Below, piece by piece: positions 24,092 to 33,043 of a stretch of DNA of 45,646 nucleotides. The notes below the pieces were generated by a model. That model was not told where the DNA came from, searched no databases, and worked only from the letters and a program-made list of their open reading frames with translations. The position numbers were made by a program, and so were the translations under genes. The stretch lies in IMG/VR virus record IMGVR_UViG_3300007734_000701, positions 1 through 45,646 of that record. One strand, 5' to 3'. Source of the stretch: a virus. Within the stretch, counting starts at the first letter, position 1. Each line of letters opens with the position of its first letter.

Positions 24092-25123
24092 ATGATTTAT
24101 AAAGTTATAACCCAGGATCAAATAAATTCAACAAGAGAGTCTCTTTATGAATCAATTCCTCTTACGGGCACAATCGTATCTGGAACATATGGAACGTATC
24201 CAAACGACACAAATGTTCTAAAGTACACGGCCAGCCACGGATTATTTGAAACAGTATACGATTACGTATACGCAAGTTCTTCAGCGAATCACATATTCGA
24301 TATTACGTTTGGATATAGAGAAGCCGGAACAATTACTCCGGTAACCCAATCAGCCCAGAAATATAGAATGTATAAGCAGATGGCACAGACTCTTCTTGGA
24401 TTCGATGCAACTGGATCTGTCAAGGACTTCGTTGTTAGCGGTTCAACCTCGACAGACAGTATGCTGTTCCTCAATTATTCTAGAATGTTAACCAAGGACG
24501 GAATCAAGATCGGATCCTACACCTCGTCTATGGGGACGGCCTCATACGCGACTCCTTTCGCAGGAACACTTGCGCAAATATCAGACAACCCAAGTTTATT
24601 GGCATCAACAGTGAAGACTGATTCTCCGGTTGGGCAATATTGGTATTTATATACGGGTTCTTCGTTTACAGAAGCTGACAAGGTTGGAATGATCTTTTAT
24701 CAGCAGGGAGTTGTGGCGCTAGACATCGGCAAGACTCCGTTCGCTAATTTAGCCTACAGCAGCTCTATTGATGGCTATTTGAGCGGATCGAACCTTCACT
24801 CTACCGGAACCATCACCGAGGTTGCAGACGGGTTTAGGCGCTATGTAGCTAATATATCATTCCAGAATACGGTTCAAATCAATTCTACCATTTACAACTG
24901 CCAAGTTGGTCTAAACGAATTCAACTACAGTTCTAATCAAACATATACCACTGGCAGCTCAATCAGAGTTAAGCAAGATGTTACAGATAATTCTAGAACC
25001 TACATAACGACGGTTGGATTATATTCAGAAGACAATCAATTGCTGGCGGTTGCCAAGGTGTCTGAGCCGTTATCAAAAACCCCATCCGACACCATAAATC
25101 TAAGAGTTCGTCTAGATTACTAA
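24092..25123 (+). CDS. Structural protein, first of a tandem pair with a shared C-terminal domain
   Basis: This 343-residue protein has a good ribosome binding site (CGGAGAAG) before ATG. It is Ser/Thr/Tyr-rich and beta-like. The last 60 residues read YITTVGLYSEDNQLLAVAKV, then a Pro/Lys/Thr turn, then INLRVRLDY; the next protein ends with the same arrangement. Such C-termini are probably trimerisation or docking strands of tail or baseplate fibres (inference). No carbohydrate-binding or enzyme motif was seen. The gene continues the structural operon with a six-base gap to its paralogue. Confidence 0.6.
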   Translation: MIYKVITQDQINSTRESLYESIPLTGTIVSGTYGTYPNDTNVLKYTASHGLFETVYDYVYASSSANHIFDITFGYREAGTITPVTQSAQKYRMYKQMAQTLLGFDATGSVKDFVVSGSTSTDSMLFLNYSRMLTKDGIKIGSYTSSMGTASYATPFAGTLAQISDNPSLLASTVKTDSPVGQYWYLYTGSSFTEADKVGMIFYQQGVVALDIGKTPFANLAYSSSIDGYLSGSNLHSTGTITEVADGFRRYVANISFQNTVQINSTIYNCQVGLNEFNYSSNQTYTTGSSIRVKQDVTDNSRTYITTVGLYSEDNQLLAVAKVSEPLSKTPSDTINLRVRLDY

Positions 25124-25129
25124 GGGTGT

Positions 25130-26377
25130 ATGAAGAAATTTACAAACAATGATTTGTTTTATAACACTCTTTTGGCCAATCCAAAATATACCATAGTTCT
25201 TTGCTCTGGCTCTCTAAGAATAAATGATCAAATAAATCAAAACACTGAAGAAAGTTCATCTATTTCTGGGGTTGATCATCCGAGATCATTTACATATTCC
25301 AAGACTGGACTTACTGGATCTTACCAATACTCATCGTCAATTAGTAGAGAATTTATATATTCAACGCTGGTGGGCAGCGAGTTGTCCTTTAATTCAAATG
25401 TCACCAGTTATTCCTCTATAAAGAAAATAGCTGCTATGAAGAATATCTTTCAGAAGTATAGACTTGAGAATGAATATTCTAATATAGACTATTATCTATC
25501 AAATAATGGCGTCCCACAAGATAAAAAGAAAAATGCTGCCAATCCGGCGTACACAATAGCTTTATCGCCAAGTTCATATCCAGGATCGTTCATAGTTCCA
25601 ACCGCCTCGATCAATCTTATAGAAATACCGAGAGACTTTTATGGTAATTATATTAAACCTGGAAGTGTATATCTGAACATGTATGTTTCTGGTGCCCTGG
25701 CTGCTTCGGCAACAGATACCGGGAAGAATGGAAAACTAATACAGACTTATGGCCCGAACAGCGGAGGTGTCATTGGGAGCGTTCTTTATGAACACGGCTT
25801 CCTTCTTATAACTGGAGCAAGTGCCCTGACGGCAGATCAGGCTCCATATATCCAGCCACTCCCGTCCGTTGTTAGCACAGCTTCTAGTGATTATCTTAAG
25901 TGGATTTATTTTGGATCTTATCAAAACATAACCGGCTCTGCAATATTAACAAAGTATGAGTTAATATTTGAGGGAACCAACGCTATTCCGACATTAACAA
26001 TGATGTGTCACGCAGAAAAGAATGAATTAAACTGGAGCAATAACAGAACCTTCATTGAGGCCGGGCAGGGAGAAGATCTCGTAATTGGACAAACTACTTC
26101 GTCAACAGACAATACTGGGTCGATATATTACGCCGACTCTGGAACGATACTGATCCCGGCAGATTCTACATACAGAGAAAGCCCATTTATTACCATAAAG
26201 AATACAATTTCAAGTTCCTTTTCGCATTATAGTGCGTCATATAGTCCTCAGACCTTCATAAGCCAGATCGGAATATATGATGATAAAAAAAATCTGATAG
26301 CGATAGCCAAGTTGGCAAACCCGGCCAGAAAAACCAAAGAGACCGATTACACCTTTAAATTAAAACTAGACCTATAG
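25130..26377 (+). CDS. Structural protein, second of a tandem pair with a shared C-terminal domain
   Basis: This 415-residue protein ends with FISQIGIYDDKKNLIAIAKL, a Pro-Ala-Arg-Lys-Thr turn and TFKLKLDL, clearly related in pattern to the end of the protein upstream. An N-terminal Ser/Tyr-rich region and a segment with LNWSNNRTF (compare FNYSSNQTY upstream) extend the similarity. The extra length lies mainly before and inside the C-terminal domain. I infer duplication followed by divergence, giving two related tail or fibre components. The ribosome binding site is weak (AGGG, 3-4 bases before ATG). It is the last gene of the tail module. Confidence 0.6.
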   Translation: MKKFTNNDLFYNTLLANPKYTIVLCSGSLRINDQINQNTEESSSISGVDHPRSFTYSKTGLTGSYQYSSSISREFIYSTLVGSELSFNSNVTSYSSIKKIAAMKNIFQKYRLENEYSNIDYYLSNNGVPQDKKKNAANPAYTIALSPSSYPGSFIVPTASINLIEIPRDFYGNYIKPGSVYLNMYVSGALAASATDTGKNGKLIQTYGPNSGGVIGSVLYEHGFLLITGASALTADQAPYIQPLPSVVSTASSDYLKWIYFGSYQNITGSAILTKYELIFEGTNAIPTLTMMCHAEKNELNWSNNRTFIEAGQGEDLVIGQTTSSTDNTGSIYYADSGTILIPADSTYRESPFITIKNTISSSFSHYSASYSPQTFISQIGIYDDKKNLIAIAKLANPARKTKETDYTFKLKLDL

Positions 26378-26389
26378 TAGCATGAACAT

Positions 26390-26914
26390 ATGATATTAGG
26401 AATCGATGTATCCACGACCACTACCGCCTTTACTGTATTAGATGACAATGGCAAGATAGTCCTGTGTGAAGCTCTGAGGTTAGAAAAACTAAAGGATATG
26501 TTCGCTAAGGCCGCGAACGTTAAGAAATTTGTTGAGAATTTAGAAAAGACATATAAAATAACAGCAGTTTATATCGAAGAACCATTAATGTCATTTCAGG
26601 CCGGAATGTCCTCGGCAAAGACGATATCCACTCTTATGAGGTTCAACGGCATTGTTTCCTGGATATGTTGTGACGTCATAGGACTAGACCCCCACTTCAT
26701 CTCGGCTGGTACGGCTCGCAAGTCATACGGGGTTAAGCTAGAGAAGGGCATAAAGGCCAAACAGGTCGTCTTTAATGCCGTCCTTGACAGAGAACCAGAC
26801 TTCAAAGTAGAATACACCACTCATGGCAATCCCATCCCGGGATCTATGGACAGAAGCGATAGTCTTATAATCGCTAGAGCTGGGTATGCACAATGGAAGT
26901 CTCTGACAAGTTAA
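26390..26914 (+). CDS. RuvC-like Holliday junction resolvase
   Basis: This 174-residue protein has the RuvC/RNase H-fold layout. The first strand reads MILGIDVSTTTTAF with Asp6, the second acidic position is in VYIEEPLMSF (Glu63/Glu64), and the C-terminal helix carries MDRSDSLIIARAG (Asp154 and Asp157). These acidic residues bind the two metal ions that cut DNA junctions. T4 itself uses an unrelated endonuclease VII (gp49) to clear branches before packaging; a RuvC-family enzyme would do the same job here (inference). The gene overlaps the primase gene by 22 bases and starts a three-gene DNA-processing cassette. Confidence 0.75.
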   Translation: MILGIDVSTTTTAFTVLDDNGKIVLCEALRLEKLKDMFAKAANVKKFVENLEKTYKITAVYIEEPLMSFQAGMSSAKTISTLMRFNGIVSWICCDVIGLDPHFISAGTARKSYGVKLEKGIKAKQVVFNAVLDREPDFKVEYTTHGNPIPGSMDRSDSLIIARAGYAQWKSLTS

Positions 26915-27831
26915 ATATAATCAACTCGTTTCTTGGGGACTATCATAGAACCGGAAACGAATATCTGTTCAATTGTCCCTTTTGTCATCATCACAAGAAG
27001 AAACTCTCTCTAAACTTTGAGAAGGGTAAGTATAAGTGTTGGATTTGTGACGAACACGGGAGCATTCGTAAATTAGTCCGCAAGAAAGCTAGGTGGGATC
27101 TTTTCCAGAAATGGAAAATTCTAGATGGAATCGTAGATTTAGACACAAATTTAAGTGATTTATTTACAGAGAAAACTCGTGGGCAAGATGAAATATTCTC
27201 CATGCCAGATAAGTTTGTCACACTAACAAGCAAGAACAGGACATTATCACATAAAAAGCCGCTGGGATATCTCGAAAAACGAGGAATAACAGAGGACGAT
27301 ATTTTATATTGGAAGATTGGATTTTGTTTTGGTGGAGAGTATGTGGATCGTGTTATCTTCCCATCGTTCAATCTAAACGGCGATCTAAATTATTTTGTCG
27401 GAAGAACAATAACCGGTGACAAGTTCAATAAGTTTAAGATGCCCTCGGCGTCTAAGGATGTCATATTCAACGAACTTTATATGGACTTCGATGTCGATGT
27501 TGTACTTGTTGAGGGCATGGTTGACGCCATAAAGGCTGGACAAAATTCAATTCCACTTCTGGGGTCCACTCTCCGGGAGGAAAGCAAACTCTTCCAGAAG
27601 ATTGTTGAATATGACACGGTAGTCTATACAGCATTAGACCCAGATGCGGCAGAGAAAGAGGGAGAAATAATAAGAAAACTTATCAACTACGGTATTGAGG
27701 TCTATAAGGTTGACGTTCTACCATTTGGAGACGTTGGGGAAATGACCAAGGAAGAGTTCCAAAGAAGAAAGTCCTTGGCTAAGTTGATGACATATGACAC
27801 ACTACTACAACAAGAACTGGAGACCGCATGA
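26893..27831 (+). CDS. 61: DNA primase, T4 gp61 / DnaG type
   Basis: This 312-residue protein has an N-terminal zinc ribbon with Cys28-x2-Cys31 (NCPFCHHHKK) and Cys49-x2-Cys52 (KCWICDEHGS). It then has a TOPRIM domain with VLVEGMVDA (Glu207) and TALDPDA (Asp249 and Asp251). This is the architecture of gp61/DnaG primases, which make RNA primers on the lagging strand, and the length fits gp61 (about 340). In T4 the partner is the gp41 helicase, which is not in this window. The start lies inside the resolvase gene, and the stop overlaps the next gene by four bases, so the three proteins are probably translationally coupled. Confidence 0.8.
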   Translation: MEVSDKLNIINSFLGDYHRTGNEYLFNCPFCHHHKKKLSLNFEKGKYKCWICDEHGSIRKLVRKKARWDLFQKWKILDGIVDLDTNLSDLFTEKTRGQDEIFSMPDKFVTLTSKNRTLSHKKPLGYLEKRGITEDDILYWKIGFCFGGEYVDRVIFPSFNLNGDLNYFVGRTITGDKFNKFKMPSASKDVIFNELYMDFDVDVVLVEGMVDAIKAGQNSIPLLGSTLREESKLFQKIVEYDTVVYTALDPDAAEKEGEIIRKLINYGIEVYKVDVLPFGDVGEMTKEEFQRRKSLAKLMTYDTLLQQELETA

Positions 27832-30800
27832 AGATTTTACACCTAGCCGACGTACACATTAAAAATTTAAAATATCATGACATATATCAAGATGTATTTG
27901 GCCAGCTATATGAGACCGCTAAGAATGAAAAGGTAGACGCAATTATTTGTTGCGGAGATATAGCACATACAAAGACAAATATCTCGCCAGAGTTTGTAGA
28001 TATGGCGAGCAGATTTTTTAACAATCTTGCCGATATCGCTCCATTATACATCATCGCCGGGAATCACGATGGAAATCTAAGAAACCTAGATCGACAGGAC
28101 GCTATTACTCCCATCGTAGAGGCGATAAACAGAAAGGAGATCTTCTTCCTAAAAAACTCAGGAGAGTGTCAACTTAATGATAAAATCACATTAAACGTAT
28201 TATCTATCTTCGATCGAGACAACTGGATAAAGCCAACCGATGTGAACAAGATAAATATAGCTTTGTATCATGGAGCAATAGAAGGATCCAGAACCGACAC
28301 CGGCTGGGCCATGAAGGAAACAGACGATGATATTTCTATCTTTGATGACTTTGACTATGCCCTTCTAGGGGACATACACAAGAGGCAGTTTCTCGGCAAT
28401 AGTTTTTCTAGCAGAAAGGGAAATGTTGCATACCCAGGATCACTGGTTCAACAGAATTTCGGAGAAGAGATAGACAAGGGAGCCCTGCTCTGGGACATTC
28501 AGGAAAAAAACAAGTTTACTGTCAAGCCTATTAATTTCAAGAATCCAAGCCCGTTCATAACAATTAACTATGATCCCGCAGAAGATCTAAAACTACAACC
28601 GAATTCTTTTCTAAGAGTCATTCTTGATAAATTTTACTCCAGAGATAAAATCCTAAAGATAAAGGAAGAAATCCATAAAAAATGTGATCCAAGATCTATA
28701 GTTGTTATAGAAAAAAGAGTTGATGACACACAACGAGTAACAGAAACCTCAAAATCTCAAAAATTAAATCTTCGCGATGAAAATGTTCAAAGTCAACTTA
28801 TAAAAGAATATCTGCAACAGGATAATCTGGATGAAGATACGATTAAATCTGTCCTGGATCTAAATACCAAATATAATTTAGAAGCTGAGATATCCGACGA
28901 CTGTGCTAGAAACGTTAAGTGGAGCTTGTCGAGCCTTGAATGGAACAACTTGTTTAATTATGAAGAAGACAACAAAATTCTGTTCGATGAGTTATCGGGA
29001 GTAGTCGGGGTGTTCGGAAAGAATTATTCTGGTAAATCTAGTATTATAGATTCTCTTTTATATACGATTTTTAATTCTACCTCAAAGAAGATTAGAAAGA
29101 ATTTTGATGTTGTAAACGAAAAGAGGACGAGCGGAGACGGAAGGGCAATCATAAAGATAAGAGGTGAGGACTTCTCAATAAAAAGGTCTACAGAAAAAGT
29201 TGTAAAAAAATCTAAGGGAAAAATTGTAGAAGAGGGAAAAACTTCTGTAGATTTTGTTGTTGGTATAGGCGAGGATGAGAAGAGTTTGAACGGAAACGAC
29301 AGAATGGAAACTGACAAGAACATAAGAAGAGAGATTGGATCAATTGAGGATTTTTGTAATACATCCCTTTCAACGCAACATGGATCGTTGGATTTCGTTA
29401 ACGAAGGCTCAACAAAGAGAAAGGAAATCCTTGCTAATTTCCTAGATCTGCAAGTATTTGAAAGAAAACATAAGCCAGCTAATCAAGAAGCGAATGAATT
29501 AAAATCTTTAATCAAAAAACTTCAAGTTAAGGACTGTTCTAAGTTGTTGTCCGAAGCTGTAACAAAAAAAGAAATTTTAGATGTTAATCTCCATGAGATC
29601 GAAGAGAATATGGAGAGCTTAAAGAAAGCCAGAGATGAGAAGATGTTGGAAGTCCAAAGGTTGGACGATGGAATCACAAAGGTAGACATTAACCTAAACA
29701 TTAAAGATCTTGAGCGGAAAAAATCTTATTTTGAAGATCTGATTGAAAAATGCCACGGAGAAATTAGCAGGCAGGAATTAAATATGGAAAAGCTAGGAGA
29801 TTCTCTTGACTTATTAGAACAAGAGAAGTCGCTAATCGACGCTGAGTATCTTTTAGATATAAAAAACAAAGAAGCTGCTCTGGTTTCACAACACAGCATT
29901 TTATCTTTTGATATTTCATCCAAGAAGAAAGATTTAGACATACACAACAAGAATCGTGAAAAGATAAAACTCGCCTCCTGCGGGACATCGCAATTCAACG
30001 ACTGTTCCTTCAAGAAAAGCGCCCTGGAGTCACAAAGACTGTCAATTACTATCAAGAGTGAACTCTCCACACTTCAGCAACAATTAGAAGAAATGACGAA
30101 AGAAATAGATGCACTCATGCCTCATGATGCACGCAGTAAATTAGATTCCTTCGCTTATTACAAGGAAAATATTGCCCAATCGGAGATTCATCTTCTCAAA
30201 TATAAATTATTTCTCAACGAAGAAAACGAAAATTTGAGAAAGCACATAGACAACTTGAATATTATCAATAGTAACCTAAAAAAATATGAAGATAATAAGG
30301 AATTCTATGAGAATATTAATGAATTAAGGGGGAACAAACTAGACATTGAGAATGAGATAAAAATAATTAATCAGAACATAGTGACTGGCGTGAGAGATAA
30401 GTTAGAAATAATAAAAAAAGTTGCTGCAATGGAACAGGTTATACTTGGGCTTGAGGAACAAAGGGTAGAATTGGAAAGATTAAATAAAGAATATTCTGCG
30501 TACGAATTATTTCTAAAGTGCGTACACAATAACGGAATTCCTTTCGAATTGATAAAAAAGAGTCTTCCAATCATAAATGAAGAAATTAACAAGTTGTTGT
30601 GTAACGTTGTTGACTTTGAAGCAAATTTTGAAAATGAAGATGGAAAATTAGAAATTTATATTACCCACCCAGGGTATTCATCTAGATCAATAGAAAATTG
30701 TTCTGGAGCAGAAAAATCCCTTGTCGCTATGGCGATACGATTGGCGTTGGTAAAGTGTGGAAGTCTTCCGGTTAGTGATATCTTTATTCTAGATGAACCG

Positions 30801-30971
30801 GCAACGTCGTTAGACGCCGAACACCTAGAGGGGTTTGTTAGAGTTCTTGACATGATCAAGAGCGAGTTCAAGGTTGTTTTGCTCGTTACTCATCTTGAAA
30901 CGTTGAAAGATTCTGTGGATAAAATAATTGAAGTCCAAAAGAACGAGGATGGGTTTGCCTCTATAAACTAG
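27828..30971 (+). CDS. 47-46: Fused gp47-gp46 (Mre11-Rad50 / SbcD-SbcC) recombination nuclease-ATPase
   Basis: A single uninterrupted 1047-residue frame joins two proteins that are separate in T4. Residues 1-350 are the calcineurin-like nuclease gp47/Mre11: DVH at 8-10, CGDIAHT (Asp44, His47), GNHD at 78-81, His148 and GDIH at 181-184. Residues from about 370 are the gp46/Rad50 ATPase: Walker A GKNYSGKSS at 397-405, a long coiled coil of about 540-930 with a hook-like C-x7-C pair (Cys718, Cys726, in the pattern CG-x4-FxxCxF), signature CSGAEK near 958-963, and Walker B FILDEPATSLD near 986-996. The complex resects DNA ends for recombination-dependent replication. A linker of about 330-370 joins the halves. 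The start overlaps the primase stop (ATGA). Confidence 0.92.
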   Translation: MKILHLADVHIKNLKYHDIYQDVFGQLYETAKNEKVDAIICCGDIAHTKTNISPEFVDMASRFFNNLADIAPLYIIAGNHDGNLRNLDRQDAITPIVEAINRKEIFFLKNSGECQLNDKITLNVLSIFDRDNWIKPTDVNKINIALYHGAIEGSRTDTGWAMKETDDDISIFDDFDYALLGDIHKRQFLGNSFSSRKGNVAYPGSLVQQNFGEEIDKGALLWDIQEKNKFTVKPINFKNPSPFITINYDPAEDLKLQPNSFLRVILDKFYSRDKILKIKEEIHKKCDPRSIVVIEKRVDDTQRVTETSKSQKLNLRDENVQSQLIKEYLQQDNLDEDTIKSVLDLNTKYNLEAEISDDCARNVKWSLSSLEWNNLFNYEEDNKILFDELSGVVGVFGKNYSGKSSIIDSLLYTIFNSTSKKIRKNFDVVNEKRTSGDGRAIIKIRGEDFSIKRSTEKVVKKSKGKIVEEGKTSVDFVVGIGEDEKSLNGNDRMETDKNIRREIGSIEDFCNTSLSTQHGSLDFVNEGSTKRKEILANFLDLQVFERKHKPANQEANELKSLIKKLQVKDCSKLLSEAVTKKEILDVNLHEIEENMESLKKARDEKMLEVQRLDDGITKVDINLNIKDLERKKSYFEDLIEKCHGEISRQELNMEKLGDSLDLLEQEKSLIDAEYLLDIKNKEAALVSQHSILSFDISSKKKDLDIHNKNREKIKLASCGTSQFNDCSFKKSALESQRLSITIKSELSTLQQQLEEMTKEIDALMPHDARSKLDSFAYYKENIAQSEIHLLKYKLFLNEENENLRKHIDNLNIINSNLKKYEDNKEFYENINELRGNKLDIENEIKIINQNIVTGVRDKLEIIKKVAAMEQVILGLEEQRVELERLNKEYSAYELFLKCVHNNGIPFELIKKSLPIINEEINKLLCNVVDFEANFENEDGKLEIYITHPGYSSRSIENCSGAEKSLVAMAIRLALVKCGSLPVSDIFILDEPATSLDAEHLEGFVRVLDMIKSEFKVVLLVTHLETLKDSVDKIIEVQKNEDGFASIN

Positions 30972-32106: not shown

Positions 32107-32472
32107 ATGCCGAATTATGATTATAAACAAATTTCGGCCTTAGAAAGGGCTATTGAAGAAAAATATGGTCAACGGGCCATATTAAACCCATCAGACCTTT
32201 GGACTCCTGAAAAAGAAAAAGTTTATCTTGATCAAGTTAAATCTGTAGAGAAATACTATAGACAACAACCACACGAACAGTGCGTCGATCAGGGTGGGTT
32301 TATAATGAAGGAAAAGCTAGTTAATAAGAATAACTTTAAAAATTGTTCATTATGCAGTAAACAGGCATACAAGTCAGAAGATGAAATTTATATGCAGAAA
32401 TTTAATTCCTGTTTTAGATGTTACATCTTGAAATTAGAAGGAAGGATAACAAATGGCCGAAATAGTAAATAA
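32107..32472 (+). CDS. Zinc-knuckle phage protein (121 aa)
   Basis: The start chosen is ATG at 32107, which has the site AAGGA nine bases upstream; an in-frame TTG at 31981 gives a longer frame, but that extension overlaps the 51-residue gene and looks like noise. Residues 1-60 are helical and charged (ISALERAIEEKYG, then WTPEKEKVYLDQVK). Residues 80-105 hold Cys80-x2-Cys83 and Cys102-x2-Cys105, a likely zinc-binding knuckle. The gene overlaps the next by 20 bases and lies two genes before the terminase. It may bind nucleic acid or protein partners in packaging, but its function is unknown. Confidence 0.65.
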   Translation: MPNYDYKQISALERAIEEKYGQRAILNPSDLWTPEKEKVYLDQVKSVEKYYRQQPHEQCVDQGGFIMKEKLVNKNNFKNCSLCSKQAYKSEDEIYMQKFNSCFRCYILKLEGRITNGRNSK

Positions 32473-33043
32473 TGATATTCAAAATGATATCTATGAAATT
32501 GTTAGAGGAATCTACAAGGCGGTATCGTTGGCTTATGATGGTCCAACTTATAATGAAGATGAAGATAACAAGGTCGGTCTTCGTAGAGAAGAAGGGAATC
32601 CTCTTGTTGATAAGAGAATTATGGACGGATTTGGAGTTAAGGTTGGCGGGAGAAAATTAACAATTAATTATCATGTTGAACTCCCATTGCACGATATTTC
32701 TAAGATGGGACCATCAAAATTTGAGGGCGAGATTGAAGATACGATCGAAAAATGTTTGGCCTTTATTAAGAAGCAGTTTAAGAAGACCACCGGAAAGGCG
32801 TTGGCCGTGAAGGAACTCAAGAGAGAAACGAAGAGCGGAAAGAGTGTTAAAGATTTTGATGTTCTGATTCAATCAATCTCTAGAGTTAGAACCTCTGTAA
32901 CCGCACACAAATCATATGAACTAACTGGGATACCAGAGCCAGAAGAATACAAGAGCGAGATAATCGATCAGTATGAAAAATATCACAAGAACGTCCTAAA
33001 GAACAAGAAGAAGGCTGAAGCAACACCGAAAAGAATGGCATGA
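32453..33043 (+). CDS. Uncharacterised protein upstream of terminase (196 aa)
   Basis: This 196-residue protein starts inside the preceding gene and ends with ATGA overlapping the terminase start. Its first 100 residues are mixed (EIVRGIYKAVSLAYDGPTYN, then KLTINYHVELPLHDI), and the C-terminal 80 residues are helical and Lys-rich (EKYHKNVLKNKKKAE). The place is that of the small terminase gp16 in T4-type phages, but the expected DNA-binding and coiled-coil pattern is not clear, so this stays a hypothesis from position. Coupling to the terminase suggests a packaging or head/neck role. Confidence 0.5.
   Translation: MAEIVNNDIQNDIYEIVRGIYKAVSLAYDGPTYNEDEDNKVGLRREEGNPLVDKRIMDGFGVKVGGRKLTINYHVELPLHDISKMGPSKFEGEIEDTIEKCLAFIKKQFKKTTGKALAVKELKRETKSGKSVKDFDVLIQSISRVRTSVTAHKSYELTGIPEPEEYKSEIIDQYEKYHKNVLKNKKKAEATPKRMA

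Follow-up and report, generated by a model that had tools for sequence, protein, structure and literature searches.

The gene located on the plus strand at positions 27828-30971 of the analyzed window, a 45,646-base IMG/VR virus record, encodes, with a probability of about 0.93, a viral Mre11-Rad50 fusion of the Mimivirus R555 kind that would serve as an end-processing machine for recombination-dependent replication. The fusion is real and well conserved, and it is an ordinary example of an architecture described in 2011. Such fusions were reported in Mimivirus R555, Bacillus phage 0305phi8-36, bacterial plasmids, including one of Clostridium kluyveri, and several eukaryotes (Yoshida, Claverie and Ogata, 2011; PMC3175470). 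In the same study, a His206-to-Asp change was noted in R555, a repeated origin of the fusions in viruses was proposed, and environmental relatives were found on scaffolds with phage primase genes (PMC3175470). A literature search for later work on Mre11-Rad50 fusions returned nothing. The window protein fits the published description on the points tested: it shares with R555 the domain order, the single chain, the short linker, the His206-to-Asp change and a viral origin. R555 differs in its length (1351 aa against 1047 aa) and in belonging to a virus of amoebae, whereas the window protein comes from a tailed phage whose portal is of T4 type. The rarity implied by the first-pass annotation was not upheld, the architecture being published since 2011 and widespread in phages.

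A single open frame for nuclease and ATPase

The gene is an uninterrupted frame of 1047 codons with no internal stop. Its ATG start overlaps the stop codon of the upstream primase gene by four bases (ATGA). Pfam families were found in both halves, Metallophos at residues 1-185 (E-value 9.9e-14) and SMC_N at residues 367-1042 (3.1e-8, below the curated cut-off of that family). Among the PHROG families, the SbcD-like phrog_100 covers residues 1-344 (6.5e-38) and the SbcC-like phrog_77 covers residues 270-1042 (2.4e-51). In a sequence search of the PDB, the N-terminal part matched Mre11/SbcD nucleases and the C-terminal end matched Rad50 ATPases. The same two enzymes are encoded in the same order by T4 (gp47/gp46) and E. 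coli (SbcD/SbcC), there as two polypeptides rather than one frame. The frame, these domains and the motifs given below bear out the single-chain order of nuclease, linker and ATPase proposed earlier. The following features were delineated:

26390..26914, plus strand: RuvC-like Holliday junction resolvase (phrog_159, 1.8e-10; homologue in 52 of the compared loci)
26893..27831, plus strand: DNA primase gene directly upstream (phrog_47, 5.7e-46; homologue in 68 of the compared loci)
27828..30971, plus strand: fused Mre11/SbcD-Rad50/SbcC gene, 1047 aa (ORF, Pfam, PHROG)
27828..28547, plus strand: Mre11-type phosphodiesterase core, aa 1-240, with D8, H10, D44, N79, H80, H148, D182 and H184 (motifs, Pfam, model)
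28548..28727, plus strand: Mre11 cap-like domain, about aa 241-300 (secondary structure of the model, conservation)
28773..28895, plus strand: two helices equivalent to the Rad50-binding helix-loop-helix of Mre11, about aa 316-356 (model; 41-45 aa in 63 relatives)
28896..28916, plus strand: linker from the helix-loop-helix to the first Rad50 strand, aa 357-363 (alignment, model; pLDDT about 90)
28917..29450, plus strand: Rad50 lobe I with Walker A (GKNYSGKS, aa 397-404) and Q-loop (PHROG, alignment, model)
29451..30524, plus strand: antiparallel coiled coil, aa 542-899, with hook region C718-x7-C726 at 29979-30005 (alignment, model)
30525..30968, plus strand: Rad50 lobe II with signature SGAE, Walker B ILDEP and H-loop H1022 (Pfam, PDB search, alignment, model)

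The AlphaFold2 monomer model, built from 63 relatives, had a mean pLDDT of 82 and a pTM of 0.48, the latter being expected because the coiled coil is long and flexible. In the model, the nuclease core (1-240) is followed by cap strands and a helix (243-295), a disordered loop (297-310), two helices resembling a helix-loop-helix (318-328 and 336-356), a short ordered linker and the first Rad50 strand at residue 364. Lobe I, the coiled coil, whose tip lies at about 716-726, and then lobe II follow. All 63 relatives have 8 or 9 residues in alignment columns 357-364, so the linker length is constant; lobe II varies only between 147 and 149 residues. The domain boundary at about 28896-28916 lies within the stretch of about 28,850-28,960 where the first-pass annotation had placed the junction.

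In a fold search of the PDB, Rad50/SbcC and SMC heads ranked first and Mre11/SbcD chains after them, the matches to Rad50 and Mre11 chains including 7zr1, 7yzp, 3av0 and 4lty. Among viral models, the top match was a repair protein of Tupanvirus (1379 aa), with an alignment over the entire length. Other full-length giant-virus repair exonucleases of fused size and proteins of the Tenacibaculum phages PTm1 and pT24 also ranked high.

As judged from the model and from the lengths in relatives, a cap and helix-loop-helix followed by a short linker precede Rad50, as in the fusions described previously, for which the same argument linking a short linker to Mre11-Rad50 geometry had been made (PMC3175470). 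The proposal that this domain order sets the Mre11 C-terminus beside the base of Rad50 agrees with the positions of the two helices and the first Rad50 strand in the model, and a set geometry imposed by the fusion is plausible, if putative. The ordinary Mre11-Rad50 complex is already M2R2, and the forced 1:1 ratio suggested along with this geometry therefore adds little.

Catalytic motifs, hook and predicted role

The nuclease motifs found in the window protein are DVH (residues 8-10), GDIAH (43-47), GNHD (78-81), H148 and GDIH (181-184). The claim that all metal-binding motifs of Mre11 are present held for six of the seven ligands; in motif V, the first His of the canonical GHxH, retained in T4, is Asp182. 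This Asp is invariant in the 82 aligned fused sequences, in which the remaining ligand positions are invariant or almost so. Since motif V is GDIH and not GHxH, the details of catalysis may differ from the canonical ones. The replacement in 82 of 82 sequences could even mean a catalytically dead nuclease half, with a DNA-bridging ATPase alone left. Such a loss is improbable given the conservation of the other ligands and the possible metal binding by Asp itself. Moreover, the same change is present in Mimivirus R555 (PMC3175470), the split T5-type D12 of phage pVp-1 has GDLH at this site, and the related fission product G009 has GHIH.

The Rad50/SbcC set is complete, with Walker A (397-404), Q517 of the Q-loop, the signature (959-962; SGAE in place of SGGE), Walker B (985-990) and H1022 of the H-loop arranged around the coiled coil. 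Thus, Walker A, signature and Walker B of Rad50/gp46 were all located in the C-terminal half, as had been stated. Across the relatives, the catalytic motifs are invariant or almost so. A CXXC zinc hook is absent from the coiled-coil apex of the window protein, which has C718-x7-C726 instead, whereas the hook of T4 is CPTC. Among the 82 fused relatives, the spacing C-x6-C was found in 49, C-x2-C in 20 and C-x7-C in 10. Details of hook dimerisation may differ from the canonical ones because of the C-x7-C spacing.

Two observations on the hook were made in addition. The cysteines (window 29979-30005, residues 718-726; relatives L008-L086) precede a conserved KF(I/V)KDA-like stretch, and the three spacings are mixed among contigs of one family.

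Nuclease and ATPase activities are predicted from these motifs, and the most likely role of the protein, by analogy, would be to process DNA ends, as a homodimer, for recombination-dependent replication. Two chains would pair through Mre11-Mre11 contacts and ATP-driven closure of the Rad50 heads, giving M2R2, and ATP would drive this homodimer from a closed form that holds DNA to an open form active as nuclease, and back. The machine would recognise DNA ends, open and resect them, and provide 3' single strands for recombination-dependent replication; it may also degrade host DNA, as T4 gp46/gp47 does. The fusion would spare the assembly of subunits and allow the pair to move as one gene.

Some phage genes use internal initiation, and an internal start here would supply an extra free Rad50 subunit, so that the parts would not be 1:1. 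This arrangement is very unlikely. Codons 300-384 of the window gene contain no ATG and two TTG (367 and 375), both without a Shine-Dalgarno motif, and no internal start position is conserved across the 82 relatives. With no plausible candidate in the linker, free Rad50 from an internal start was rejected.

Distribution of fused genes in phages

At least 536 confirmed relatives were found by a scan of IMG/VR, and the best 80 of these were kept; being the top-scoring ones, they are biased to full-length copies and are not a random sample. Each of these best 80 has both halves in one uninterrupted frame; five of the loci reach a contig end. The best 80 of at least 536 come from many separate metagenomes and share 38-55% identity with the window protein. 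The gene order RuvC-primase-fusion-terminase-portal is conserved in the relatives; the window gene itself lies in a replication/recombination cluster. Three further window genes (25130-26377, 24092-25123 and 32453-33043) were observed to be syntenic in 33 to 60 compared loci, and none of the three has a PHROG match. No near-identical DNA was found in phage records, and no plasmid relatives were found at the sensitivity of the search used.

Eight relatives have contigs as long as 115-204 kb, and there the fusion is the sole full SbcC/SbcD homologue; one of the eight fusions runs off its contig, and weak, short extra matches to each of the SbcC and SbcD families occur on one of the eight contigs. 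A second copy may exist elsewhere in the window's own genome, of which the window is a 45.6-kb fragment. Lamassu and Smc-family heads occur among the fold matches, as they would if the gene were cargo, an SMC/ABC nuclease system of anti-phage type, and not the phage's own replication enzyme. This origin is extremely unlikely for a gene that is placed in the conserved core cluster from primase to terminase, matches the phage SbcC/SbcD families and is the only full copy in the large relatives, on contigs of 127-204 kb.

Single-gene fusions were also found in nine cultured phages: Microcystis Mel-JY01 (1066 aa), Tenacibaculum PTm1 (1318), Sphingomonas PAU (1301), Chryseobacterium MA9V-1 (1326), Rhizobium RHph_Y65 (YP_010671389.1, 959), E. 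coli IME392 (921), Acinetobacter Ab1-TPeters (935), Thermus phiLo (866) and Vibrio Va2 (1082). A fused frame of 1202 aa was also seen in LR756501, a huge phage of 735 kb. The closest cultured relative found is the Mel-JY01 protein (WWT39521.1), 31% identical across query residues 3-1038, with a primase gene almost directly upstream. It differs from the window protein in its Walker A, which begins APNASGKS, in its hook region and in belonging to another phage lineage. Two separate genes were found in many isolated phages, namely T4, S-CRM01, Moorella MTATph1, Twort, EF24C, SP-15, KKP_4048, SBSphiJ3 and pVp-1, as well as in the metagenome-assembled Lak-A1.

The proposed search for other phage genomes with the same fusion succeeded in 80 of the 80 best IMG/VR loci and in nine cultured phages. 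Isolated relatives with two genes (T4, Twort, SBSphiJ3, EF24C, SP-15) notwithstanding, an assembly or sequencing error masking a stop or frameshift between two ordinary genes has a negligible probability: by sequence comparison, the fusion is not an artefact, because the frame runs through the junction, with an unchanged linker length, in all 80 best relatives, which stem from many metagenomes, and fused genes are also seen in independently sequenced cultured phages.

One-chain Mre11-Rad50 is thus no curiosity of giant viruses: among tailed phages the class is large and stable. The cultured phages IME392, Thermus phiLo and RHph_Y65 open the fused enzyme to purification or deletion, and a single chain would be handy for structural work. 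Fused genes are often annotated as one half alone, and this is the usual case among the cultured phages. The intact RHph_Y65 version, for instance, is annotated as an SbcD-like subunit alone. Rhizobium RHph_TM39 (L005 4168-8014) was deposited with two genes, which look like one fused gene; its candidacy as a two-gene system, taken from its annotation, was rejected, as the DNA shows one fused gene interrupted by a stretch of N.

Phylogeny, probable breakage and interruption of the fused gene

In maximum-likelihood trees, built without Mimivirus R555, the window group, the huge phages, Mel-JY01 and PTm1/PAU/MA9V-1 form one clade (support 100), separate from E. coli SbcDC, the one cellular sequence in the tree. 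RHph_Y65, IME392, Ab1-TPeters, Va2 and phiLo, single-gene fusions like the window gene, form another clade (support 100), which lies away from the window clade in the ATPase tree; this placement is compatible with an independent fusion. The two fused clades are apart in the ATPase and concatenated trees and nearer in the nuclease tree. Two independent fusions in phages are therefore likely but not proven.

On the contig CACYXI010000001 (MAG RUG12352, binned as Bacteroidales), a protein of the fused family is encoded in two parts that are separated by about 12 kb and stand in reversed order, and it falls within the fused clade in the trees. The nuclease fragment (L093 4971-5822) has about 277 aa and ends near position 256 of the window protein. 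The ATPase piece (L109 1378-3768), a frame of 797 aa, starts with the remaining cap, the helix-loop-helix and the linker, so that the break is inside the cap and off the Mre11/Rad50 boundary. Judged by tree topology alone, two fusions are as parsimonious as a breakage. The later breakage of a formerly fused gene is nevertheless the simplest reading of these sequences, because the cut lies in the cap and the C-terminal part of Mre11 remains on the Rad50 piece.

The interest of the gene rests chiefly on this re-split in the cap domain, the variable hook spacing and the invariant Asp of motif V. Tentatively, these could mark the window clade as a distinct variety of fused Mre11-Rad50 with a GDIH site and an interchangeable hook (C-x6/7-C versus CXXC), which would join DNA ends unlike canonical Rad50 and whose fusion would be so stable that later breakage falls in the cap, off the old boundary. 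We consider such a variety rather unlikely, and the ordinary viral fusion of the R555 kind remains the preferred reading.

Two interruptions or insertions were observed among the relatives. In the 484-kb phage LR756508.1 (L001 6665-7579), an HNH-type endonuclease ORF interrupts the fused gene within the nuclease domain, shortly past the GDIH active-site motif. In another locus (L052 6959-7902), an ORF with a homing-endonuclease-like tail lies 3' of the intact fused gene. An Rfam intron search in these two loci found nothing. Behind this ORF of L052, the final 62 residues of the fused gene occur a second time, which gives the impression that an incoming element brought along part of a related gene.
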